From: a virus
Reading direction: 5' to 3' (one strand)
DNA length: 20,829 nucleotides
IMG/VR virus record: IMGVR_UViG_3300035204_000981
Span: 1 to 20,829 of that record
The position numbers and the translations under genes are program-made. Below the pieces are notes generated by a model, which was given only the letters and a program-made list of their open reading frames with translations, was not told the origin of the DNA and ran no database searches. This document shows, piece by piece, positions 1,213 to 18,651 of the stretch (within the stretch, counting starts at the first letter, position 1; each line of letters starts with the position of its first letter).

Positions 1213-1587
1213 TTAAAATTTAGTAATCCATATGTTTGTATTTACTCCTTGAGTGTGTATAGTGTCACTAAACAAAACGATGTTATTTAGACGGTTTTCG
1301 AGCACCCCTACAGGATTTGAGCCTAGCTCAAATAAATTTTTTTGTTCAACTCCAAATCTTACTTCATATACCTGCTTACCTTTATATATAGATTTGCGTG
1401 GTTTTGAAAAGAATAATATTTTACCATACATAGTAATCATCTGATGTAAATGATCAAAGTCTTTTTGCTTATCTTGATCTAAAGTATCATTTTGATAATC
1501 TATTGGTAAAGTTGTAACTATCTTATAAACTTCAAGATCTTCGCTTACTTGCATATACTGATTTTTACTTGTATTTAGAGAATACAT
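1213..1587 (-). CDS. Conserved-type hypothetical protein
   Basis: This 124-residue protein has no motif I recognise. It looks like a single soluble alpha/beta domain: no signal peptide, no membrane segment, no cysteines, alternating hydrophobic strands (YKIVTTLPI, KILFFSK, QVYEVRFGV) and a central acidic helix. Its ATG overlaps the TAA of the large gene upstream as TAATG at 1585-1589, which indicates translational coupling with the DUF6267-type protein. A functional link to that protein is possible but is only inferred from the coupling. Confidence 0.75.
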   Translation of the reverse strand: MYSLNTSKNQYMQVSEDLEVYKIVTTLPIDYQNDTLDQDKQKDFDHLHQMITMYGKILFFSKPRKSIYKGKQVYEVRFGVEQKNLFELGSNPVGVLENRLNNIVLFSDTIHTQGVNTNIWITKF

Positions 1588-3494
1588 TATCTTCTTGTTG
1601 CTCCTACTGCCACATTTTTAGGCAATGATTTTTGTCTTACATTATGCCTATCTTGTAAGTTTCTTTCTTTAACCATATTTTGTAATATTCCATAAAGTTC
1701 ACTTTTAGGAGAATGTTCTCTTATATAATGCATTATATCAATTGTAACATTATATCTTTCTTTTTCTTTTAAACGATCCCAATCAGATGCAAATCTTCTT
1801 ATTTTTTTCAACTCACGTGATCTTACAGCTAATTGCGTTTCTAATCTAATTAACATACTTGACGTTTGTTTTCTTGAAAAATTATCATTAGAAATATATC
1901 TTAATAATTGATTTATATCAGTATAATGTCTTTGCAACCTATCAATATAGTTTTGACTTCTAGTATCATCAAATTGTATTATTGACCCAGCTCCAACTAT
2001 ACTATGTAATAACAAATATAAATCTGTTCCATTTGTTCTAAAGAAATCATAATTACCATAACTCATACTTCTAATAATATAATTTCTTGCTATTCTTTGA
2101 TATTTGTATTCACCTGTTAAAACTAATAATGCTAAACAATATGCATAAGCTAATTCACCATTTTCTGATGCTGATCCTTTTCCTAAATCCTGTCTTGACC
2201 TAAATGCTCTGCTTTCAGACAAATCATTAACAAGTGTATATTCTATATCTTCTTTAGCAAAGTTCTTTCTTGAAAAATCTAATCTATCTACAACTTTAAC
2301 TGCATTACCTACGTGATCAACTGCAACAAAGCCTTCTTGATCTCTAACAACATACTCGTCGCCTTGTAGTTCAAAAGCATCTATAGATTTAATATTTTTT
2401 AATTTCTGATACAATGTATTTTTAATTGCCGTTAATTTTAACCAACCACTATACCAATTTTGAACATTCTTTTTATTTGACATATAATAATTTCGCCATT
2501 GTTCTAGTGCTAATAATTTTCTTTGTCCAGCTGGGCCTTCCCTACCTGTTTTTAATTTTTCAATTGCTTTTTCAACTCTTGATTCATAGTCTTTTGCAAA
2601 GTTATAAAAAAATGCTAAAGGATCTTGTGTAATTTCTCCTGCTTTAATCATATTATTATGATTGGCGTGAACAAGATTTTTAAAATCTTTACCTAATTCA
2701 TTAGCTTCTAAAAAATCAAAAATATTGCCTGCTGAATTAATATATTTTTCAGCATCACTAATAGCTTGAGTTATATTTGCATACTCACCTTTTGTAAGAT
2801 TCACAACTCCTGTAAAGTCTTTTATATAAGCATCATCAAACCATACTTTAGGGGTTCTAGTTAAACTTTCTAAATCAATATCAAAACTTGCTGACATACT
2901 ATCTAAACTTTTTCCTGAATAGCTTGTATGAAAAACAATACCTAAATCTGCTTGTTGTATTTCTTTTGCTAGTTCCATACTTTGTGGAACAGCATAAGTT
3001 ATTGTATTTGGTTTAAATGCAATATATGATTCACCTTGAAAATTTATTGTTTTCAAATCACCTTTAGTCCAGAGTAAATCTCCTTGTAATACATTTTGTA
3101 TACCTAATTTTTGTAAACTATTAAATGCTACAACTAACTTATTTCGTAAACCTTGCTTACTAGTTTCTCCAGCATCAGGGTGATTAGTTGTAATATCTCT
3201 TATACTTTTATTAAGTTTTGCATCTTTATTAAATGCACTTTTTGTAGCAACAAAGAACTTTCCGTCACTAGGATCAGTACCACAAACTATTGCCGGTGAT
3301 CCGTCCCATTTTATTGTTACATTAAATTTTTTAGTACTTGATGTTTTGGCTAGATTGGCTAAATTTCGTAAAAAAGCGACAGCTTTTAAGGCACCTGCTT
3401 TACCTTGAAATAGTGCCAAATCTTCTAAATGTGTAAGGTGTAGATTTGGATTCTCTTGTAATAAATCATTAGCTTTCATTGTTATTGGACTCAT
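1587..3494 (-). CDS. DUF6267-type protein with ligase/nucleotidyltransferase-like motifs
   Basis: This 635-residue protein matches my recollection of the DUF6267 family of marine T4-like phages, which has no assigned function. Reading its motifs suggests a covalent nucleotidyltransferase (DNA/RNA ligase-type) core: KWDGSP at 62-67 looks like motif I (KxDG, with the Lys that would be adenylylated); QGDLLW at 137-142 resembles motif III; LGIVFHTSYSG near 184-194 may be motif IIIa; EGFVAVD at 387-393 and VKVVDR at 399-404 resemble motifs IV and V. About 190 residues separate IIIa and IV, longer than in small ligases, with a Lys/Glu-rich helical part between. The C-terminal third is helical and basic. 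The start overlaps the 86-residue gene by 26 bases. A second in-frame ATG at 3477-3479 is possible; neither start has a strong ribosome site. Activity is inferred, not known. Confidence 0.85.
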   Translation of the reverse strand: MSPITMKANDLLQENPNLHLTHLEDLALFQGKAGALKAVAFLRNLANLAKTSSTKKFNVTIKWDGSPAIVCGTDPSDGKFFVATKSAFNKDAKLNKSIRDITTNHPDAGETSKQGLRNKLVVAFNSLQKLGIQNVLQGDLLWTKGDLKTINFQGESYIAFKPNTITYAVPQSMELAKEIQQADLGIVFHTSYSGKSLDSMSASFDIDLESLTRTPKVWFDDAYIKDFTGVVNLTKGEYANITQAISDAEKYINSAGNIFDFLEANELGKDFKNLVHANHNNMIKAGEITQDPLAFFYNFAKDYESRVEKAIEKLKTGREGPAGQRKLLALEQWRNYYMSNKKNVQNWYSGWLKLTAIKNTLYQKLKNIKSIDAFELQGDEYVVRDQEGFVAVDHVGNAVKVVDRLDFSRKNFAKEDIEYTLVNDLSESRAFRSRQDLGKGSASENGELAYAYCLALLVLTGEYKYQRIARNYIIRSMSYGNYDFFRTNGTDLYLLLHSIVGAGSIIQFDDTRSQNYIDRLQRHYTDINQLLRYISNDNFSRKQTSSMLIRLETQLAVRSRELKKIRRFASDWDRLKEKERYNVTIDIMHYIREHSPKSELYGILQNMVKERNLQDRHNVRQKSLPKNVAVGATRR

Positions 3495-3787: not shown

Positions 3788-5191
3788 TTATTGGGTATTA
3801 TCGAAAGTTTGCCGTTGTGACTTCAATAAATCACGCAATCCTTTAGTAATTTCCGTCTTTTCGGCTACTACTGAGGCTTCAGACTTTTCAGTTACTATAG
3901 ATGACCTTTTCTTAATTGACTGTACTAATGCATCAGATGTTGTTGGTAAAATTTCCTCATCATCTTCATTTAAGTCAGTAATTCTTAATCTATCAATATC
4001 AAATGCTAAATCAATTTTACTTCCTACACCACCACTTGATCTAGTTTTAATTAATTGAATCTGATACCTTCCTCTCTCACGCATAGCTCTACTTGTAAAG
4101 ATACCTATTAAATTATCTGCTGTATTAATCTTACTAATACCACCTGCTATATGACTTTGATCATACTCTACTTCTTCAATTGCACCTCTATTTAATTGTG
4201 ATGCTGTAACTAATACTATTTGCTGTTCTACAGCAAAATTTCTTAATTCTTCTGATATAAATTTATCTTTAATAAACAATTCTGTTGGTGAAATTTTCTT
4301 ACTAATTGGCATCATTAAATCTAAATAATCAACTAATACTACATCTGGTTTTATACCTTTTTGTATAGTATATTCTTTAATAAATGAACGTAAATCATTT
4401 GTAGTACAGCCAGATGGCATATACTTAACTTGGAATTTACCTGATTTAGTTTTTTCTAATCTAACTGCTAAATCAACATCATCTATTTTTTTAAATATTT
4501 CATTAGTTGGTGTACCAGTAATCATTGCATCTAATCTCATTGCACTTAATTCTTCACTCAATTCAAATGTAAAATATAAAACATTAAGATTTGAACTAAC
4601 CCAATTTAAAGCCAAATTTTGTAAAAATAATGATTTACCTGCACCTGATGATCCTGCAAAAATTGTAAGTTCACCTTTATTAAATCCACCATATAATTTT
4701 TTATCTAGCATAGACCAACCAGTTTTAATTGTTCCATTATTATTTTTTAAATTTAATAATCTTGCTTTTGGATCTAAGAAATAATCTGTTCCTAAATTTT
4801 TTGTAAGTCCTATTCTTACTGCCGCTTTAATTTTTTCTTCAACAGGCCCATACTCTCCTTGTTCTAATAAATCAGCTGAATCAATAATTGCTCTTTCTAA
4901 TGCTTTATGTCTACAAAATGTTTCAAACTCGTCTAAAAACCAAGTCTTTTGTGTGTCATCAATATTTGGTACTGGTGTTAATTCTATTTCACATTTAGCT
5001 TGAACTTGTTGTATAGTTGGTAATGTTTGATATTTTTCTGAATGATCAACAAACATTGAAACTGTTTCAAAATACTTTTTACTAAAATATACTGGACTAA
5101 TAATATTTCGAGCTCTAACAAATAACTCAGGATCAGTTATCATAAACTCTAAAAATAATTTCTGTAAATCGTCTGTATATACTGTTGGCAT
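3788..5191 (-). CDS. gp41: Replicative DNA helicase, gp41/DnaB family
   Basis: This 467-residue protein is the phage replicative helicase, which travels 5'-3' on the lagging strand as a hexamer and works with the gp61 primase encoded just upstream. The N-terminal domain (about 1-130) is helical. The RecA-like motor domain has Walker A GSSGAGKS at 180-187, a Glu in YFTFEL around 207-211, Walker B VVLVDYLDLM at 284-293, SQLNRG at 331-336 and KTRSSGGVG at 382-390, which resembles the DnaB arginine-finger region. The length fits T4 gp41. The ATG overlaps the thyX stop as TAATG, so it is translationally coupled. It is the last gene of the primase-ClpP-ThyX-helicase operon, and a late promoter follows it. 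The C-terminal tail is charged and probably flexible. Confidence 0.95.
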   Translation of the reverse strand: MPTVYTDDLQKLFLEFMITDPELFVRARNIISPVYFSKKYFETVSMFVDHSEKYQTLPTIQQVQAKCEIELTPVPNIDDTQKTWFLDEFETFCRHKALERAIIDSADLLEQGEYGPVEEKIKAAVRIGLTKNLGTDYFLDPKARLLNLKNNNGTIKTGWSMLDKKLYGGFNKGELTIFAGSSGAGKSLFLQNLALNWVSSNLNVLYFTFELSEELSAMRLDAMITGTPTNEIFKKIDDVDLAVRLEKTKSGKFQVKYMPSGCTTNDLRSFIKEYTIQKGIKPDVVLVDYLDLMMPISKKISPTELFIKDKFISEELRNFAVEQQIVLVTASQLNRGAIEEVEYDQSHIAGGISKINTADNLIGIFTSRAMRERGRYQIQLIKTRSSGGVGSKIDLAFDIDRLRITDLNEDDEEILPTTSDALVQSIKKRSSIVTEKSEASVVAEKTEITKGLRDLLKSQRQTFDNTQ

Positions 5192-6454: not shown

Positions 6455-7444
6455 CTAGGCTCCTATTTTTTTCAAAACTTTTATTTTTGCTATATTACCT
6501 ATAGCACCATTAATTACAGATTGTACTGTATACAATCTCCCATAGTTATTTACTGCTTCTGCACAATCTTTAATATGAGTTTCCCATTGTGGGAAACTTA
6601 CTAACCAATTGTTTTCTACAGCAACATCAATTAAATTTCCACCAGATTTATCTCTATCTGGGCAAACAATAATAGTTTTGCCAATACTATTAATTAATTC
6701 TATTTGTCCTTGTGTAAGTTTATTTCCTAAAGAACTTACTGAATCTATTGCAAGTGCATCTAAGACACCTTCTGTTATTATAATATATTTTCTATCTTTA
6801 TACAAGTGGTCAAAATTATAAATGTATCCAGGTTGAACTACTGAATAATATTTTGGTACATTATCATAATTCTTTATAATTCTAGCTGTATATCCTACTA
6901 ATTTTTGATTAGCATAAAAAGGAATAATTACTCTTTCATTAATTCTCATATAAGGATCACTACTCCAATAAAACTTATCATAAAAATCTAAGCCTCTATC
7001 CATCAAATATTTGTAAACAAATAAAGCACTAGCCGGCGGATTTGCACCTTTAATAATTTCACTTAATAATACTGAATTATTTGGTAATTGTTTTTCTACA
7101 AATTCATTTGCATAATGCGTATGCCTAGTAATTGTTACAGTATCATCTTTTTCTTTCATTGCAATCAACTGTAATTCTTTTACTTTTGCTTCTGATACTC
7201 CAATATTAATTAATAAGTCACGCATTTTACGTCCTATTAATCTGCCAGGTGTATAAGATGCTTTATACCCACAATTAAAACAATGATAACTTGAAACTTC
7301 ACTAAATTTAAATCCACCACGTCTTCTTTTATCAGCAGAATGTCCTTGTGTTATACACATTGGACAATTAATAGTATGCCAACCAGATGGTGTTTTTTTA
7401 TGTTTTCCACCAATATGTGCTAAAATTGTAGATTGTAAATTCAT
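6455..7444 (-). CDS. gp61: DNA primase, gp61-type (zinc finger plus TOPRIM)
   Basis: This 329-residue protein would make RNA primers for lagging-strand synthesis with the gp41 helicase encoded three genes downstream. A zinc-binding domain is visible: CPMC at 27-30 and CFNC at 55-58. The TOPRIM catalytic region has IITEGVLDALAI (222-233, with Glu225) and VCPDRDKSGG (260-269, with Asp263 and Asp265). The length fits T4 gp61 (about 340). The ATG at 7442-7444 has no ribosome site upstream. Instead a promoter -10 box (7452-7457) ends only 7 bases before it, so the mRNA may be leaderless. It is the first gene of the primase-clpP-thyX-gp41 operon. Confidence 0.95.
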   Translation of the reverse strand: MNLQSTILAHIGGKHKKTPSGWHTINCPMCITQGHSADKRRRGGFKFSEVSSYHCFNCGYKASYTPGRLIGRKMRDLLINIGVSEAKVKELQLIAMKEKDDTVTITRHTHYANEFVEKQLPNNSVLLSEIIKGANPPASALFVYKYLMDRGLDFYDKFYWSSDPYMRINERVIIPFYANQKLVGYTARIIKNYDNVPKYYSVVQPGYIYNFDHLYKDRKYIIITEGVLDALAIDSVSSLGNKLTQGQIELINSIGKTIIVCPDRDKSGGNLIDVAVENNWLVSFPQWETHIKDCAEAVNNYGRLYTVQSVINGAIGNIAKIKVLKKIGA

Positions 7445-9241: not shown

Positions 9242-9249
9242 TATTTATG
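9242..9249 (-). promoter_or_regulatory. Possible late-type promoter element CATAAATA
   Basis: On the minus strand CATAAATA, one mismatch from the T4 late consensus TATAAATA, ends 5 bases before the ATG of the virion-type gene (9236). Transcription from it would begin at or next to the ATG. It overlaps the start codon of the plus-strand gene at 9247. A structural gene should be late, which favours it. The mismatch, the AT-rich context and the short leader count against it. Confidence 0.3.
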
Positions 9250-9618
9250 GAATACGCAGAGTTACAAGAGAAATTTCCGTTTTTAAGCTGTATTAAACAC
9301 AGCAATAACGAATATGTAGGTATATTACTTAATCAAGACCAATTCGTTACATCAATCTATGTTTATGATCAAATTAAAGATCATAACAAGAAGCAATTGT
9401 TCTTAGAATTAGGTGAAGTTTGGTGGTGGGAGTCTAATAGAACTATTCCTATCAATATCTTCTTGAATAGAGAATTTGAAGAATATAAACCTTACATTAA
9501 AACGTTCACTACTAAAGATACAGAAATAATTTTTGGTCCAAAAACTAGTTTAAACAATGTTTTAAAAAAACGTATTATAAGACGTAATATTAGCTTAATT
9601 AAGAAAAATAATGAATAA
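9247..9618 (+). CDS. Conserved-type hypothetical protein, only plus-strand gene
   Basis: This 123-residue protein starts MEYAELQEKFPFLSC and has a strongly conserved-looking core LFLELGEVWWWESNRTIPINIF (about residues 50-71), followed by a basic C-terminus (KKRIIRRNISLIKK). I recall very similar proteins in marine T4-like phages, which supports it as a real gene despite its opposite direction. No function is known to me. It is read divergently from the virion-type gene; the two start codons are only 10 bases apart, so any promoter or ribosome site for one lies inside or at the start of the other. No clear ribosome site or sigma70 promoter is visible upstream. It ends 50 bases from the convergent 201-residue gene. 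An antisense regulatory effect on the neighbour is possible. Confidence 0.85.
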   Translation: MEYAELQEKFPFLSCIKHSNNEYVGILLNQDQFVTSIYVYDQIKDHNKKQLFLELGEVWWWESNRTIPINIFLNREFEEYKPYIKTFTTKDTEIIFGPKTSLNNVLKKRIIRRNISLIKKNNE

Positions 9619-9667: not shown

Positions 9668-10273
9668 TTAAGTGGCCACCTGGGGTGTTAGTACCCCCGA
9701 AAAATCATTACATATCAAGTTCATTTGCACAACAATGGCGTGGGCATAGGCTATGGCGTGTGCTTTCTTAAAGTAATAAGATCCATCGTTTGGTTTCTTC
9801 CATACATTACTTTCAATCTCATTCCAATTTTGTTTTAGCAGATGCCTTTTGGCTGGTCTTATTATTGCTAGTACCATTGCGAGTTGTTCTATACTTTTTG
9901 GTTTCATTGTTTGTAGTATCAAACTGTGTTCTCCTACGTGAAACAATTGACTGCTGAATTCTTTGTGCGTAAGTAATTCCCATATCGGCTCCTGTTTTAA
10001 AAGTTCTACTAAATGTTTTTCATTTTTTACATCATTGTAAATTGATACATTTAGAATATCTAATTTAAAATAACCTCTCTCTTCTGCTTCTTTATACTCA
10101 ATATTAGATACACCAAGTATTGGATTAACTGGAATATCAGTACAATACACACCTGTATTATGCTTCTTTAATCCATTCTTATCTTTAATACTTGCAGGTA
10201 TATGTTTTAATAACTTTAAAAGTTTATCTCTATTACCTGTATCTATATCTATATCAGTTTTTGCTATGTTCAT
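9668..10273 (-). CDS. DnaE-like (C-family polymerase palm/fingers) mini-protein
   Basis: This 201-residue protein carries, in order, short motifs that match bacterial DNA polymerase III alpha. DIDID followed by Arg15 (7-15) resembles the palm PD(F/I)DxDF..xR with two catalytic Asp. KHNTGVY (37-43) resembles rHaaGvv. GYFKLDILN (67-75) resembles K-FDFLGL with the third catalytic Asp, here Asp72. LFHVGEHS (110-117) resembles FQLES. KPKSIEQLAMVLAIIRPA (124-141) resembles P..FEDLIALVALfRPGP. FKKAHAIAYA (168-177) resembles FNKSHAAAYA. All connecting segments are far shorter than in DnaE (about 1,100 residues). PHP, beta-binding and OB domains are absent. GAGGAG lies 7 bases before the ATG. It overlaps the 89-residue gene by 20 bases at the end of the gp32-uvsX-uvsW operon. 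I recall homologues in marine T4-like phages annotated as hypothetical. Polymerase activity is unproven; a decoy, regulator or nuclease cofactor is possible. Confidence 0.88.
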   Translation of the reverse strand: MNIAKTDIDIDTGNRDKLLKLLKHIPASIKDKNGLKKHNTGVYCTDIPVNPILGVSNIEYKEAEERGYFKLDILNVSIYNDVKNEKHLVELLKQEPIWELLTHKEFSSQLFHVGEHSLILQTMKPKSIEQLAMVLAIIRPAKRHLLKQNWNEIESNVWKKPNDGSYYFKKAHAIAYAHAIVVQMNLICNDFSGVLTPQVAT

Positions 10274-10523
10274 TTATATACTCCTCGACTCTATTTTTAA
10301 GGGCTCCCATATAGACTTCTAACATTTTTACTCGCTTACCTAAATCTTGCATTTGAATTAATGATTCCTTAACAGTTTTTACATTTTTATTATAAAGTTC
10401 TTTTTCAGCTAACTGCACTATTACTTGTAATTTTTCCCACTCTTTTATAATATCTTTTCTATCTGTTTCAGTCAGAGTCATTGCTGTTGCAACAGACCGT
10501 AGATCACTTATTTCTTTCTTCAT
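10254..10523 (-). CDS. Small helical protein of unknown function
   Basis: This 89-residue, all-helical protein is rich in Glu, Lys, Val and Leu, with coiled-coil-like spacing over about residues 20-85. It has no cysteines, no membrane segment and no signal. Its ATG overlaps the stop of the zinc-finger gene upstream as ATGA, and its 3' end overlaps the DnaE-like gene by 20 bases, so all three are probably made together. It could be a small partner or adaptor for one of its neighbours; that rests only on the tight coupling. Confidence 0.75.
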   Translation of the reverse strand: MKKEISDLRSVATAMTLTETDRKDIIKEWEKLQVIVQLAEKELYNKNVKTVKESLIQMQDLGKRVKMLEVYMGALKNRVEEYINEHSKN

Positions 10524-11197
10524 AATCCGGCCGCCTTTGTTACATCCATTACAAATTTAACATCATCAGGACTATCTTGAAACCTTTTAGCCCAAGGATT
10601 TGGTGAAATATAATCTTCTATCATTGTCATTTGTTCTACAGATAATTTTTCTAATAAACTTATTCCACCTTTACTATTATAAAGAACCCACGGACTAATT
10701 TTACCTGATCTAATCATATGTATTGCTCTTGGTACAGATACTTCATTAAAAAAATTAGTCCAATCGGCATTTATTTCGTCTGCCCACTTTTGAATTGATA
10801 ATATAGTTCTTTCTGTTGCTGAACTAACATTTTCTCTATGACTAAATTCTTTAATATATTTTTCATATACTTCATCACTTGACCACCTATCAACTCTTTC
10901 TCTATTTTTTAATAACCATTCAATATAATGTTCTACTGAAGCAATATAAACTCCAGTTACATAATTTGCAAACTTAACAAATGCTGTATAATACTTGCTA
11001 TCCATAAAGTCTTCGTATGTTCTTTCATTTTTCATAGTAGTACTACTAATACGAAAAAAATGTTGATAACATCGTAAAGCTAATTGCACGTTTGTATCTT
11101 TCCTATTATTCCATCTTCGTTTTGGTTCACAAAGGTGTGCAACTAATGTGCTTTCATTAGTAAAACTTTTTTCACAAAATTTACATTGGTACATCAT
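10520..11197 (-). CDS. Zinc-finger protein conserved in marine T4-like phages
   Basis: This 225-residue protein opens with a single zinc finger: Cys5, Cys8, His21 and Cys23 in YQCKFCEKSF...LVAHLCEPKRRW (a C2HC arrangement). The rest is helical and tryptophan-rich (WLLKNRERVDRW, WADEINADWTNFF, SPWVLYNSKGGISLLEKL, PNPWAKRF). I recall this finger followed by LCEPKRR and later SPWVL as typical of a conserved but uncharacterised marine T4-like phage protein. The start has two adjacent ATGs; the first overlaps the upstream stop as ATGA. Its place in the gp32-uvsX-uvsW operon suggests a DNA replication, recombination or transcription role. DNA or protein binding by the finger is inferred. Confidence 0.87.
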   Translation of the reverse strand: MMYQCKFCEKSFTNESTLVAHLCEPKRRWNNRKDTNVQLALRCYQHFFRISSTTMKNERTYEDFMDSKYYTAFVKFANYVTGVYIASVEHYIEWLLKNRERVDRWSSDEVYEKYIKEFSHRENVSSATERTILSIQKWADEINADWTNFFNEVSVPRAIHMIRSGKISPWVLYNSKGGISLLEKLSVEQMTMIEDYISPNPWAKRFQDSPDDVKFVMDVTKAAGL

Positions 11198-11670: not shown

Positions 11671-12167
11671 AATATACTTCCTGCATCAAATGAATCTGGT
11701 ATTTGATTTGTTTCTTTTGCAAAGAAAACACAAGGTGGATTTGGTCCATCATTTAATGGCACAGCAATTATATGTCCGTGTTTTAATTTTGGAAAATACC
11801 ATTTAACTTCTTGGAATACATTTACAATTTTTACTTCATTTGCTTGTATCATTTTATGAGTAAGTGGATTAATTGTTAACACTTGAAATCCTCTATCATT
11901 TAAACTTGTTAAAGGAACCATTTCACATATTCCTAACTCTCGCTCTACAGCTAAGATGCTCCAATCAATTGGCATTTGAACACTATTTCTACCTACTTCC
12001 ATTATCATACTTGGAGCATTAAAAGTTTCCATAAAAATCAAAGGCACAAAAAAGAAATCTATGTTCTTTGGATTATTAGTATCAAGTACACAATATTGTA
12101 CTTCGTCTGCTGTATCTGGTACTTTATCTAAATTATACGACTGATTTTCTGTTGTTAATATTTTCAT
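11667..12167 (-). CDS. Conserved-type hypothetical protein of the uvsW operon
   Basis: This 166-residue, beta-rich protein contains VPLIFMETFNAPSMIMEVG, QMPIDWSILAVERELG, EMVPLTSLNDRGF and VKWYFPKLKHGHIIAVPL. I recall closely similar proteins in marine T4-like phages with no assigned function. No nucleotide-binding, metal or membrane motif is visible. Its start overlaps the uvsW stop as TAATG, and its stop overlaps the next gene as ATGA, so it is tightly co-translated with recombination and replication proteins. Nothing in the sequence points to a specific activity. Confidence 0.83.
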   Translation of the reverse strand: MKILTTENQSYNLDKVPDTADEVQYCVLDTNNPKNIDFFFVPLIFMETFNAPSMIMEVGRNSVQMPIDWSILAVERELGICEMVPLTSLNDRGFQVLTINPLTHKMIQANEVKIVNVFQEVKWYFPKLKHGHIIAVPLNDGPNPPCVFFAKETNQIPDSFDAGSIL

Positions 12168-13618
12168 TATATTTTTACCTTACTAACAGTATACGGGTAT
12201 TTGGCTTCTTTGTAAAACCTTTTTCTTGCTGTTAAGTGTCTTTTTGAATATTTGCAACTAGATGTTATATCCCAAATTTGTACATAATCCTTATCTTCTG
12301 CTTTTCTAATGCCTCTTCCTATACTTTGTATAACTCTTACAAAACTTTTTCCTGGTTCTACAAGTACTAGATTAAAAATTCTTGGTAAATTAATACCTAC
12401 AGCCGCTACACCATATGTTGCAATAATAACTTTATATTGTTCAGTAGCTACTTCTGAATATTCTTCTTCACGTGTTTCTAACTTTGTTTTACCTTGTATA
12501 AAAACTGATCCTGGAATTTCTTCTTGTAATAGCTCTCCTGTTTTAATTCTATCAACTAATATTAACGTATTACCTCCTGATCTTATTTCGTCAACTAACT
12601 TACTCATAAATGTAAGTCTTGGTTTAAAACTTGTAAGATATGTTAACTCTTCTGGGTATGTTCTAAAAGTTGCAAAATCTTGTGTTTGAATAATATTCAC
12701 GTGGCATTGTGCTAATACACCTTTTTCTTGTAGATCACTTGCTGATAATTGATTTATTACTTTACCTAACGAAGCTATTAAACTTACTTTTTCATAATCT
12801 TCTTTTGGTATTGTTCCAGTTAATCCCCACCTAATTGGAATATGTGCAAATGGTCCTGTTAATAATGTTTTTAATATATCTGCTTTTGCCATATGTACTT
12901 CATCTACTATTACACATACAACATCTTTTAGAAATTCATCTAAAGGAAAATCAGCTTCTGCTTTTTTAGTTTTTTTATGTAATACATTTAAACTTTGCCA
13001 AGTACAAATTGTATGTTGACGACCTAATTCTTTTCTTTCACCAAAATATACACCAACGTCTAGTCCACAAGTAATATAATCTTCTTCAGTTTGCCCTACT
13101 AAACTTTTATTAGGTACTATAACAATAGTTCTACCATATTTTTGACACATCTTTGATAATACGGCTGTAATTATTGTTTTTCCTGCACCTGTGGCAATTT
13201 CTTGTAAACTTTGTGGTACTTTTATAAATTCATTTATAACTTTAACTTGATAATCTCTTAATACAATTGAATTACCAGCACTAGGATGATTTTTAGGCCA
13301 CGTTATATCTGACAAATAACTTTCATCTATAGTTTCAAATTTTAAATTATAATCTTTTCTATAATCTTTAATTTGAATATCATATTCTTGATCTTCAATA
13401 ACAGGCAATATTTTATCAAGTAAGTTTAAATATGTTCTTCCACCTATATCACAAAAACGAATATTTCCATCCCATCTTCCTAACTTATATGCTGGTAAAT
13501 GGTATGCATATGGTATAAAGTATTTTAATTTGTCGGATATTTTTCTGCGAGTTACTACATCTAAGTTTTCAAACTTAACATTTACTTCGTCTTTAATATG
13601 CAGTACTGTTTTCTTCAT
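12167..13618 (-). CDS. uvsW: Superfamily 2 helicase UvsW
   Basis: This 483-residue protein is the T4 UvsW type of DNA helicase/branch-migration enzyme, which remodels forks, R-loops and recombination junctions. The visible motifs are Q-like LRDYQ at 120-124, motif I ATGAGKT at 142-148, motif II DEVH at 239-242, motif III GLTGT at 265-269, ATYGVAAVGIN at 400-410 and motif VI QSIGRGIRK at 431-439. The N-terminal ~110 residues form the small accessory domain typical of UvsW. Length matches T4 UvsW (about 500). No convincing ribosome site precedes the ATG, and a TATAAT box lies 5 bases upstream. The stop overlaps the next gene as TAATG. Confidence 0.95.
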   Translation of the reverse strand: MKKTVLHIKDEVNVKFENLDVVTRRKISDKLKYFIPYAYHLPAYKLGRWDGNIRFCDIGGRTYLNLLDKILPVIEDQEYDIQIKDYRKDYNLKFETIDESYLSDITWPKNHPSAGNSIVLRDYQVKVINEFIKVPQSLQEIATGAGKTIITAVLSKMCQKYGRTIVIVPNKSLVGQTEEDYITCGLDVGVYFGERKELGRQHTICTWQSLNVLHKKTKKAEADFPLDEFLKDVVCVIVDEVHMAKADILKTLLTGPFAHIPIRWGLTGTIPKEDYEKVSLIASLGKVINQLSASDLQEKGVLAQCHVNIIQTQDFATFRTYPEELTYLTSFKPRLTFMSKLVDEIRSGGNTLILVDRIKTGELLQEEIPGSVFIQGKTKLETREEEYSEVATEQYKVIIATYGVAAVGINLPRIFNLVLVEPGKSFVRVIQSIGRGIRKAEDKDYVQIWDITSSCKYSKRHLTARKRFYKEAKYPYTVSKVKI

Positions 13619-13623
13619 TTCTT

Positions 13624-13652
13624 ATTATACAGCTAAGACTATTTTTTTGCAA
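13624..13652 (-). promoter_or_regulatory. Possible promoter at the uvsW start
   Basis: On the minus strand TTGCAA (13647-13652) and TATAAT (13624-13629) are separated by 17 bases. The -10 box is perfect; the -35 box matches 4 of 6. The start of transcription would fall within the uvsW ATG, so this would give a leaderless uvsW mRNA, as proposed for the primase. The -35 box lies inside the end of the upstream gene, and AT-rich sequence makes chance TATAAT boxes common. Confidence 0.4.
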
Positions 13653-14112
13653 ATAATTCTGCATCATCTAGCCCTGCTACCCTTAATTTTACAATATTAT
13701 TAATTTGAAATTGTTTGGCATCAATGGCTTTAAGTAAACCTAAAAATTTATTTCTTAACAAAGCAAATTCATTAACTAGGTTAGCCATATCAACAACATC
13801 ATCTTCTCCGTCAATATAGTTTCTAACATCATTTGATGTTAATGCTCTTTGATAATTTTCTAAAAACTTTTTATAATGTTTACTTCTGATTTTTCTTAGT
13901 TGTATATTAAGAAATTCTAAAATTGCTTCGATTTCTTGTAATTGATTAAATCTATGTTCGACAACTCCTGGAATATTTTTAGCATTTCTTTCAATGTTAC
14001 CAGTAAGTCCACATTCAACTCTTGCTTCTTCAAGTTGATTTTCGTAGTATTCGATACATTCAGGAATTTTACTAAGGTTGTTAGAAACTTGTCCGTACCA
14101 TTTTGCTGACAT
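13639..14112 (-). CDS. Helical conserved-type protein between uvsX and uvsW
   Basis: This 157-residue helical protein has a block EHRFNQLQEIEAILEFLNIQLRKIRSKHYKKFLE (about 52-85) and a second block DMANLVNEFALLRNKFLGLLKAID with KLRVAGLDDAEL near the C-terminus. I recall the same pattern ('GxxEHRFNQLQ...ALTSxD...KLRxAGLxD') in marine T4-like phages, where it is uncharacterised. Heptad spacing suggests coiled coils. Its place between uvsX and uvsW makes a recombination-mediator role such as UvsY conceivable, but I see no direct UvsY motif. The ATG overlaps the stop of the 85-residue gene as TAATG. Confidence 0.87.
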   Translation of the reverse strand: MSAKWYGQVSNNLSKIPECIEYYENQLEEARVECGLTGNIERNAKNIPGVVEHRFNQLQEIEAILEFLNIQLRKIRSKHYKKFLENYQRALTSNDVRNYIDGEDDVVDMANLVNEFALLRNKFLGLLKAIDAKQFQINNIVKLRVAGLDDAELFAKK

Positions 14113-18351: not shown

Positions 18352-18651
18352 TTACTTAGACTTTTTAAATGGATTCAAGCTCTTAATTTTGTCTGTTGCA
18401 CTAGATACTGCACCTTTGGCTTTATTAGTTGCTCCGGTTACTGCACCTTTGGCTTTATCAGTTGCGCCTTTGGCTTTATCGGTTGCTCCGGTTACTACAC
18501 CTTTAGCTTTATCAGTTACTCCGGTTACTACACCTTTAGCTTTATCAGTTACTCCGGTTACTGCACCTTTTACCTTATCAGTTGCTTTTCCAACTGCTTC
18601 GCCAATGTTTGGCATCTTAATCGTTGGGATTTTAATTTTCGGTAGTTTCAT
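18352..18651 (-). CDS. 11-residue-repeat amphipathic protein (LEA/synuclein-like)
   Basis: This 99-residue protein is built of near-identical 11-residue units of the form (A/V)TDKAKG(A/V)VTG, about six copies with one shortened to 7 residues (ATDKAKG). The N-terminus (MKLPKIKIPTIKMPNIG) and C-terminus (LNPFKKSK) are basic. 11-residue repeats with Lys on one face and Ala/Val on the other form amphipathic helices, as in group 3 LEA proteins and alpha-synuclein, which bind membranes or protect proteins. No cysteines and no aromatics in the repeat. AAGGAG precedes the ATG. It sits between a probable virion protein and the cargo promoter. A membrane-, capsid- or DNA-contacting role is inference. 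Confidence 0.85.
   Translation of the reverse strand: MKLPKIKIPTIKMPNIGEAVGKATDKVKGAVTGVTDKAKGVVTGVTDKAKGVVTGATDKAKGATDKAKGAVTGATNKAKGAVSSATDKIKSLNPFKKSK
18404..18590 (-). repeat. 33-base coding tandem repeats
   Basis: Within the 99-residue gene the DNA repeats every 33 bases (11 codons). The units at 18491-18523 and 18524-18556 are identical; flanking units differ by a few bases, and one unit is shortened to 21 bases. This pattern indicates recent copy-number change by slippage or recombination, so the repeat number probably varies between related phages. Confidence 0.85.

Follow-up and report, generated by a model that had tools for sequence, protein, structure and literature searches.

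The analysed sequence, called the window in the following, is the whole of an IMG/VR virus record of 20,829 bases. The gene under study is termed part 2. Its product is the C-terminal portion of a minimal DNA polymerase III alpha (Pol III alpha) that is split in two; it comprises the catalytic palm strands and the fingers, while the thumb is deleted. The protein falls into phrog_11778 (annotated as 'DNA polymerase', 197 positions) with an E-value of 1e-69, and residues 53-141 also match phrog_405, a DNA polymerase family of 1190 positions (E 6.2e-6). Coordinates of part 2, its motifs and its neighbours are given in Table 1.

A tblastn search with the window protein yielded 63 phage records, the best 60 of which had identities of 35-54%. 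Among these 60 listed records were 57 jumbo phages of 285-490 kb and three shorter ones (86-110 kb), and carriers include PA5oct, RaK2, GAP32, 121Q, Atu_ph07, Phosso, SCTP-2 and Vibrio phage 2.275.O. IMG/VR contained 40 part-2 loci with up to 91% identity across the full length. A scan of genome contigs revealed seven further loci, every one from MAGs or from an uncultured-bacterium bin, with contigs of 335, 283 and 153 kb among them. We read these seven as probably misbinned phage contigs. The 39 full-length IMG/VR loci encode 25 distinct proteins, and 23 of these together with the window protein formed the family alignment A1; L008 and L017 (near-identical to others) and the fragment L040 were left out.

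Table 1. Positions of part 2, its conserved motifs and neighbouring genes in the window
Feature	Position	Strand	Basis
Part 2 (C-terminal half of split minimal Pol III alpha)	9668..10273	-	201 aa, ATG start
Asp7-Ile-Asp9-Ile-Asp11 (DIDID)	10241..10255	-	26/26 aligned proteins; predicted strand 8-12
Lys70-Leu71-Asp72	10058..10066	-	pairs with E. coli K553 and D555; KxD in 26/26; predicted strand 70-75
Fingers motif MKPKSIEQLAMVLAIIRPAK, residues 123-142	9848..9907	-	partial Pfam DNA_pol3_finger; DnaE pairing to E. coli 641
FKKAHAIAYAH, residues 168-178	9740..9772	-	His in 26/26; short stretch paired with 5lew 774-787
gp41-like replicative helicase	3788..5191	-	tblastn to gp41/DnaB-type or primase/helicase genes; synteny
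gp61-like DNA primase	6455..7444	-	phrog_47, E 9.1e-34; synteny
Small convergent conserved gene, downstream of part 2	9247..9618	+	phrog_11637, E 6.3e-34
Conserved neighbour, weak N-terminal C2H2 zinc finger	10520..11197	-	phrog_11058, E 1.2e-68
UvsW helicase	12167..13618	-	phrog_16 (DNA helicase), E 2.8e-72; tblastn to RaK2 and SCTP-2 UvsW
Probable UvsY	13639..14112	-	PF11056, E 7e-4, just below cut-off

Further genes on the minus strand were noted in passing. Two adjacent Lys/Arg-rich paralogues of 97 and 113 aa lie at 282-918; they share a stretch around IYG...YRC..G..KGRIV..P..C.AP and have the look of nucleic-acid-binding proteins. At 1587-3494 a 635-aa protein with DUF6267 (PF19782, E 2.1e-93) is encoded, and at 18352-18651 a 99-aa protein made of imperfect GATDKAKGAVT-like repeats, which is LEA-like in look.

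Homology of part 2 to bacterial DNA polymerase III alpha

Searches with the single window protein gave little. The Pfam scan listed a weak DNA_pol3_finger match (E 0.14) and no other domain, the NCBIfam scan gave zero matches, and DnaE was absent among the matches of a PDB search. Such results would suit a chance resemblance of motifs, or a degenerating piece of a host dnaE gene. Clear DnaE matches came solely from family-level alignments. When six relatives were scanned, five gave DNA_pol3_finger E-values of 0.0054-0.025, none of them above the curated cut-off. Using hhalign, we then aligned the 24-sequence part-2 family with DnaE from E. coli and from eight phages (nine sequences, some of them shortened). 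This resulted in a probability of 92.9, an E-value of 3.6e-7 and a score of 60.0, and paired window residues 35-141 with E. coli DnaE 508-641. As a control, 60 column shuffles were run; these peaked at a score of 23.9, and the reversed alignment reached 19.7.

The DIDID and SHA-type ends of the protein lie outside this local stretch. They are supported by the fold match, which spans residues 1-195, and by short hmmsearch stretches that are individually insignificant. A search of the PDB with the part-2 profile returned two chains at E ≤1, both of them Pol III alpha (5lew and 7pu7), with modest E-values of 0.0093 and 0.023. The matched stretches followed in order: DIDIDF, the KxD region with the fingers, and the SHA motif.

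The AlphaFold model of part 2 had a pLDDT of 87.9. In a fold comparison against the PDB the top 13 rows were all C-family polymerases (Z 6.0-9.8), and row 14 dropped to Z 3.4. All 201 residues are covered by the palm/fingers match when model and fold comparison are considered together. Foldseek gave weaker best E-values of 1.5e-3 for part 2 and 1.3e-2 for part 1, the second half described below. Part 2 thus shares ancestry with bacterial DNA polymerase III alpha in the palm and fingers. A chance resemblance or a decaying dnaE fragment is practically negligible in view of the family profile, the fold and the shuffle tests. It is also at odds with the conservation of the family across jumbo phages of many hosts and with purifying selection on part 2 (dN/dS 0.07-0.14 for the window against six relatives, with dS above 1 in two of the six pairs, L007 and L012).

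The preliminary description of this DNA had called the protein a mini C-family polymerase-like protein, and this is borne out by the profile, the shuffle control and the fold match. It had suggested a profile search and a structure prediction; the former found DnaE matches (PHROG, hmmsearch and hhalign) and the latter gave a model that matches the C-family fold in Foldseek and in the fold comparison.

Catalytic residues and shortened linkers

All six DnaE motifs that had been noticed before are present in the reading frame in the expected order. For their conservation we aligned 26 proteins, namely the window protein and those of 10 named phages, nine IMG/VR loci and six MAG loci. None of the 26 lacks DxDxD, KxD, RP or the SHA-type His, with DxDxD displaced by two columns by the aligner in L186. 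The E. coli row had been cut beforehand to the expected segments, and therefore its motif placement is not independent evidence. E. coli PDFDVDF corresponds to residues 400-406, so that D401 pairs with Asp7, D403 with Asp9 and D405 with Asp11; Asp72 pairs with D555. The E. coli counterpart of the SHA-type motif reads FNKSHSAAYAL.

With the catalytic residues of E. coli DnaE, which we take to be D401, D403 and D555, the sequence alignment predicts that all three metal-binding Asp are retained in the family. The earlier assignment of the catalytic Asp needs a correction at one position. Asp9 and Asp72 hold, and the place given to Asp11, the partner of D405, belongs to Asp7. The shortening of the linkers is also evident, as had been claimed: the first and third Asp (Asp7 and Asp72) are 65 residues apart compared to 154 in E. 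coli. Loss of the thumb can be read from the distance between Asp9 and His38, which is 29 residues, compared to 108 between D403 and H511 of E. coli.

The missing palm half is encoded by a second gene in relatives

The window ORF starts at the PDIDIDF strand of DnaE, and GxGRGS is absent from it. Thus, the protein lacks the first half of the DnaE palm, the one that carries GxGRGS. When six large records were searched with PF07733, four turned out to contain another small ORF, located far from part 2. We refer to this gene as part 1. The part-1 proteins of the relatives have 169-182 aa and belong to phrog_11127. PF07733 was found in four of four part-1 proteins (E 1.4e-8 to 5.3e-12); it detects part 1 and not part 2. 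Near the C terminus these proteins have GRGS and then an EFLK/EFLN-type run, after which the chain stops at once or one residue later, a pattern that corresponds to GRGS...LLFERFLN of DnaE.

In hhalign, part-1 residues 105-180 paired with E. coli DnaE 318-393 (E 1.5e-9). A search of the PDB with the part-1 profile gave zero chains at E ≤0.01. The model of part 1 (from L065) had a pLDDT of 90.6, and 15 of 15 listed rows of its fold comparison were C-family polymerases (Z 7.9-12.9), covering residues 81-182 at most. Residues 1-83 had no PDB counterpart in this comparison, which barely probes them, and a new fold is therefore not claimed. The two models tile the known structures one after the other: 279-395 and then 396-809 of E. 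coli 2hnh, 296-457 and then 457-872 of Taq 2hpi, and 825-967 and then 967-1362 of PolC 3f2b. Between the E. coli FLN at which part 1 ends and the PDFDVDF at which part 2 starts lies just PERVSM (394-399).

The position of the break was analyzed in IMG/VR, where at least 80 part-1 loci with 78 distinct proteins were found (36 of the 78 form alignment A3). Of the 78 listed distinct proteins, 70 terminate 29 residues beyond GxGRGS and the other eight 30-35 residues beyond it. A fusion of part 1 with part 2 was found at none of the at least 80 IMG/VR part-1 loci. An intein at the break was considered and rejected, since part-1 proteins end at most 35 residues after GRGS and leave no space for an intein half. 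As a control for specificity, both PHROG profiles were applied to 14 control genomes. The phrog_11778 profile matched none of these and phrog_11127 matched eight, so the latter profile alone cannot single out the split form.

A few part-1 observations deserve mention in their own right. In G017, part 1 lies within a 307-aa frame (L118, 4584-5504, plus strand) with an N terminus about 130 aa longer than in most, a possible domain fusion. The GRGS end of phrog_11127 has a weak second match (E 1.4e-4) in a 582-aa frame of G013 (C1:23826-23927, plus strand), located about 6 kb from part 2 of that record. Part 1 also matches phrog_13169 (463 positions) and phrog_7513 (461 positions) near their C-terminal ends; these families could represent the N-terminal parts of further DnaE proteins that are broken or split.

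Co-occurrence of the two halves and of a B-family polymerase

Part 1 was present in 10 of 10 named phages that carry part 2. Part 2 might alternatively be a complete minimal polymerase in its own right. It carries the metal-binding Asp and the fingers and yields a confident model by itself. The GRGS half of the palm is absent from it, however, and a separate gene for this half exists in all ten named genomes, which makes a self-sufficient part 2 highly unlikely. Of the minimal polymerase proposed in the preliminary description the trimmed C-family unit stands, whereas its stand-alone nature does not, as the palm half with GxGRGS comes from a partner gene. The observation on part 2 was correct, yet half of the picture, and the GRGS half is encoded elsewhere. 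Homology, predicted fold, split point and conserved motifs, all computed, identify part 2 as the C-terminal half of a split C-family polymerase.

The pairing extends beyond the named phages. Among the 60 listed of 63 part-2 records, 59 are also among the 60 listed of 155 part-1 records. The one missing from the listed part-1 rows is PP728206 (109,507 bases); conversely, OP752703 is among the listed part-1 rows and missing from those of part 2. We tested 14 IMG/VR records, picked for carrying one half, with both profiles. Both halves were detected in seven of seven records of at least 250 kb and in one of seven shorter ones. The other shorter records had part 1 only in four cases (G009, G014, G017 and G019, 156-228 kb) and part 2 only in two (G001 and G002), and part 2 was found in 10 of the 14 overall. 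We read the records with one half as probably incomplete. The distance between the two genes ranges from about 14 kb (CM1, XacN1) to 280 kb (G012). The pairwise distances of part 1 and part 2 across 18 genomes were correlated with a Mantel r of 0.77, a value reached by 0 of 5000 permutations. This correlated divergence fits joint inheritance of the halves; plain vertical descent may suffice for it, and contact between the proteins is unproven by it.

The N-terminal partner does not lie within the window. In 10 partial records with part-2 relatives 48-91% identical no part 1 was detected, in a search that had no positive control. In G001 (242,646 bases), the nearest long relative of the window, neither part 1 nor a B-family gene was detected. 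In G010 these genes are located at 9.8 kb (part 1) and 34 kb (B-family). The ORFs at the ends of G001 were compared with pieces of G010 (220-260 kb not included). A match was obtained for 17 of 32 ORFs, four of them off the expected places. ORFs of the left end map mostly to 80-129 kb of G010 (one to 295 kb) and those of the right end mostly to 300-323 kb and 1.5 kb; two end ORFs fall at 41 kb and 26 kb, within the region presumed to be missing. From these positions, G001 is probably without the stretch where part 1 and the B-family gene should sit, although this is not cleanly shown.

A B-family polymerase was found in 10 of 10 named phages, in agreement with the earlier statement that T4-like phages have such an enzyme of their own. 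It was also found in 12 of 19 IMG/VR records, the other seven being linear and at most 242,646 bases long. The presence of this second polymerase, the shortness of the protein and its shortened linkers could speak for a catalytically dead or non-polymerase protein that acts as a scaffold, or as a decoy for host DnaE partners. DnaE binds the clamp and tau by dedicated regions. These clamp- and tau-binding regions are absent from part 2, and the family is under purifying selection. In addition, DxDxD, KxD and the SHA-type His are invariant in the 26 aligned proteins, as is GxGRGS in 18 of 18 paired part-1 proteins. A dead protein is thus improbable, and the host decoy suggested in the preliminary description is disfavoured.

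We infer instead that, quite probably, the two halves bind each other and the pair polymerises DNA. In this two-chain enzyme the distant second gene would encode an N-terminal subunit bearing the palm half with GxGRGS, and part 2 would supply the metal-binding Asp and the template-facing fingers. Both chains would associate in trans, with one active site rebuilt from the two. Part 1 would grip the dNTP phosphates through GRGS, the motif that holds the incoming dNTP phosphates in DnaE/Pol-beta.

Genomic neighbourhood and possible role

The surroundings of part 2 were compared at 20 loci, among them those of close relatives and, at the distant end, PA5oct and RaK2. Within the reach of each locus, and with single members undetected in some, the recurring order is uvsX, a uvsY-like gene, uvsW, three unknown genes, part 2, the convergent small gene, an unknown or structural gene, gp61 primase and gp41 helicase. 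XacN1 departs from this order; the region examined downstream of its part 2 contains genes for a dNMP kinase and for DnaQ and lacks an annotated gp61. The gp41-like gene of the window found tblastn partners in PA5oct, Phosso, RaK2, SCTP-2, Vibrio 2.275.O, Atu_ph07 and GAP32, and the counterpart of the probable UvsY in Vibrio phage 2.275.O carries a PF11056 annotation. In GAP32, three genes separate part 1 from the gp44 clamp loader.

Two small neighbours are constant. At all 20 loci, including that of RaK2, the phrog_11637 gene lies downstream of part 2, on the opposite strand and no more than about 0.8 kb away. Two genes upstream of part 2 is the phrog_11058 gene, whose zinc finger (zf-C2H2, E 1.9e-4) is below the curated cut-off. 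All 20 loci have a homologue of this gene on the upstream side of part 2, and therefore the product of this gene may be a partner of part 2.

Lacking the thumb as well as the PHP, clamp-binding, OB and tau domains, the two-chain enzyme should be distributive. The missing thumb and processivity domains suggest short-patch synthesis; loss of the thumb could also mean an activity other than polymerisation. Based on the UvsX-UvsY-UvsW-gp61-gp41 block and on the B-family polymerase in these genomes, an accessory role is proposed. As a tentative reading, the pair may be a short-patch polymerase that extends gp61 primers or 3' ends of D-loops. Synthesis would then be handed over to the B-family gp43, much as DnaE of B. 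subtilis passes synthesis on to PolC. The more specific version, a trans-assembled thumbless enzyme of about 370-380 aa dedicated to gp61/gp41/UvsX primer or D-loop extension before gp43 takes over, is somewhat unlikely. To our knowledge, a pair of this size would be the smallest C-family polymerase known.

A close rival to the primer or D-loop extension role is that the assembled polymerase serves damage tolerance, gap filling or recombination-linked repair, which is plausible while falling short of probable. Part 2 lies within the UvsX/UvsY/UvsW recombination block, and an enzyme without thumb and processivity domains suits short patches. A DnaQ-type exonuclease, encoded as a separate gene in eight of 10 named phages and located between UvsX and UvsW in RaK2 and GAP32, would fit as well. 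However, gp61 and gp41 share the same block, part 2 looks like a core gene with its presence in all ten named phages, and the separate exonuclease was undetected in two of the 10 named phages and six of the seven long IMG/VR records. DnaQ as an obligate proofreading subunit was rejected on the same distribution (eight of 10 named phages, one of seven long IMG/VR records).

If the pair is active, the catalytic core of Pol III could be reduced to about 370-380 residues, compared to 1160 in E. coli alpha, and could be divided through the middle of the palm. It would offer a small and tractable C-family enzyme, allow a test of the ancestral-replicase idea of Iyer et al. (PMC7824862) and bear on why phages with their own B-family replicase retain a second polymerase. 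If the more specific version, with primer or D-loop extension, holds, the pair would be a living model of the pre-fusion Pol III core. With two small genes, a defined break point and defined catalytic residues the pair is now testable, and PA5oct, RaK2, GAP32, 121Q, Sharanji and Phosso are isolated phages with both halves. In PA5oct these are gp196 (part 1) and gp264 (part 2), and the host given for Escherichia phage Sharanji is E. coli K-12 MG1655.

Comparison with known systems

Part 2 shares DxDxD, KxD, RP and the SHA-type motif with bacterial DnaE (E. coli, Thermus aquaticus, M. tuberculosis; Z 6.0-9.5). E. coli DnaE carries PHP, thumb, clamp-binding, OB and tau-binding parts in a single chain of 1160 aa. 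In contrast, part 2 has 201 aa, is thumbless, has its palm cut before PDIDIDF and is without GxGRGS in the same chain; the PHP, clamp-binding, OB and tau-binding domains of full-length DnaE and PolC are absent. PolC of Geobacillus kaustophilus (3f2b) was the top row of the fold comparison (Z 9.8, rmsd 5.0, 197 aligned residues), tied with the Taq rows to within 1. PolC, too, is a single chain with further domains. A polymerase in pieces is also known from phage MIJ3, whose B-family gp43 is split around an intein ORF according to the portion of that report covering the gene (PMC6892783). The MIJ3 gp43 belongs to the other polymerase family, is split at an intein and lies in neighbouring ORFs, unlike the C-family pair; MIJ3 additionally carries part 1 and part 2.

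Pieces of this system appear in other phage papers. The CBB paper mentions a truncated alpha of 172 aa with epsilon (relevant sections of PMC5259590), and the Atu_ph07 paper alpha and epsilon (relevant sections of PMC6102473). In a marine jumbo-phage survey (PMC9123017), PF07733 occurs in 51.9% of cluster PGC_A and is the sole gene unique to this cluster that a majority of its phages carry. Because this Pfam family picks up part 1 but leaves part 2 undetected, some of these PGC_A proteins may be part 1. A 2026 review of jumbo phages (PMC13282480) does not mention a split polymerase under the terms looked up, and a split viral C-family enzyme was not seen in the sections consulted of a 2026 survey of bacterial polymerases (PMC12926913). 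A published test of a two-piece polymerase was not found in literature that mostly excluded subscription papers and bioRxiv-only preprints.

The closest known system is a minimal Pol III alpha, split in two, that Iyer et al. described in 2021 for group 2.2 jumbo phages (PMC7824862). In the passages of that paper on this enzyme, it is phage-specific and occurs together with a B-family polymerase; the suggested role is either to synthesise one of the strands or to act in repair, and the phage version is regarded as a model of the ancestral form of the replicase. Similarly, the window protein represents the C-terminal family (phrog_11778) with the Mg2+/DNA-binding part, and a distant N-terminal, NTP-binding unit is present in its relatives. 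In contrast to those phages, the window is a fragment of 20.8 kb from an uncultured virus. The window is thus a further member of the already described split Pol III alpha, and the prediction is already in print. Relative to the same passages, three results go beyond the earlier work, namely the fixed position of the break, the test for selection and the test of correlated divergence.
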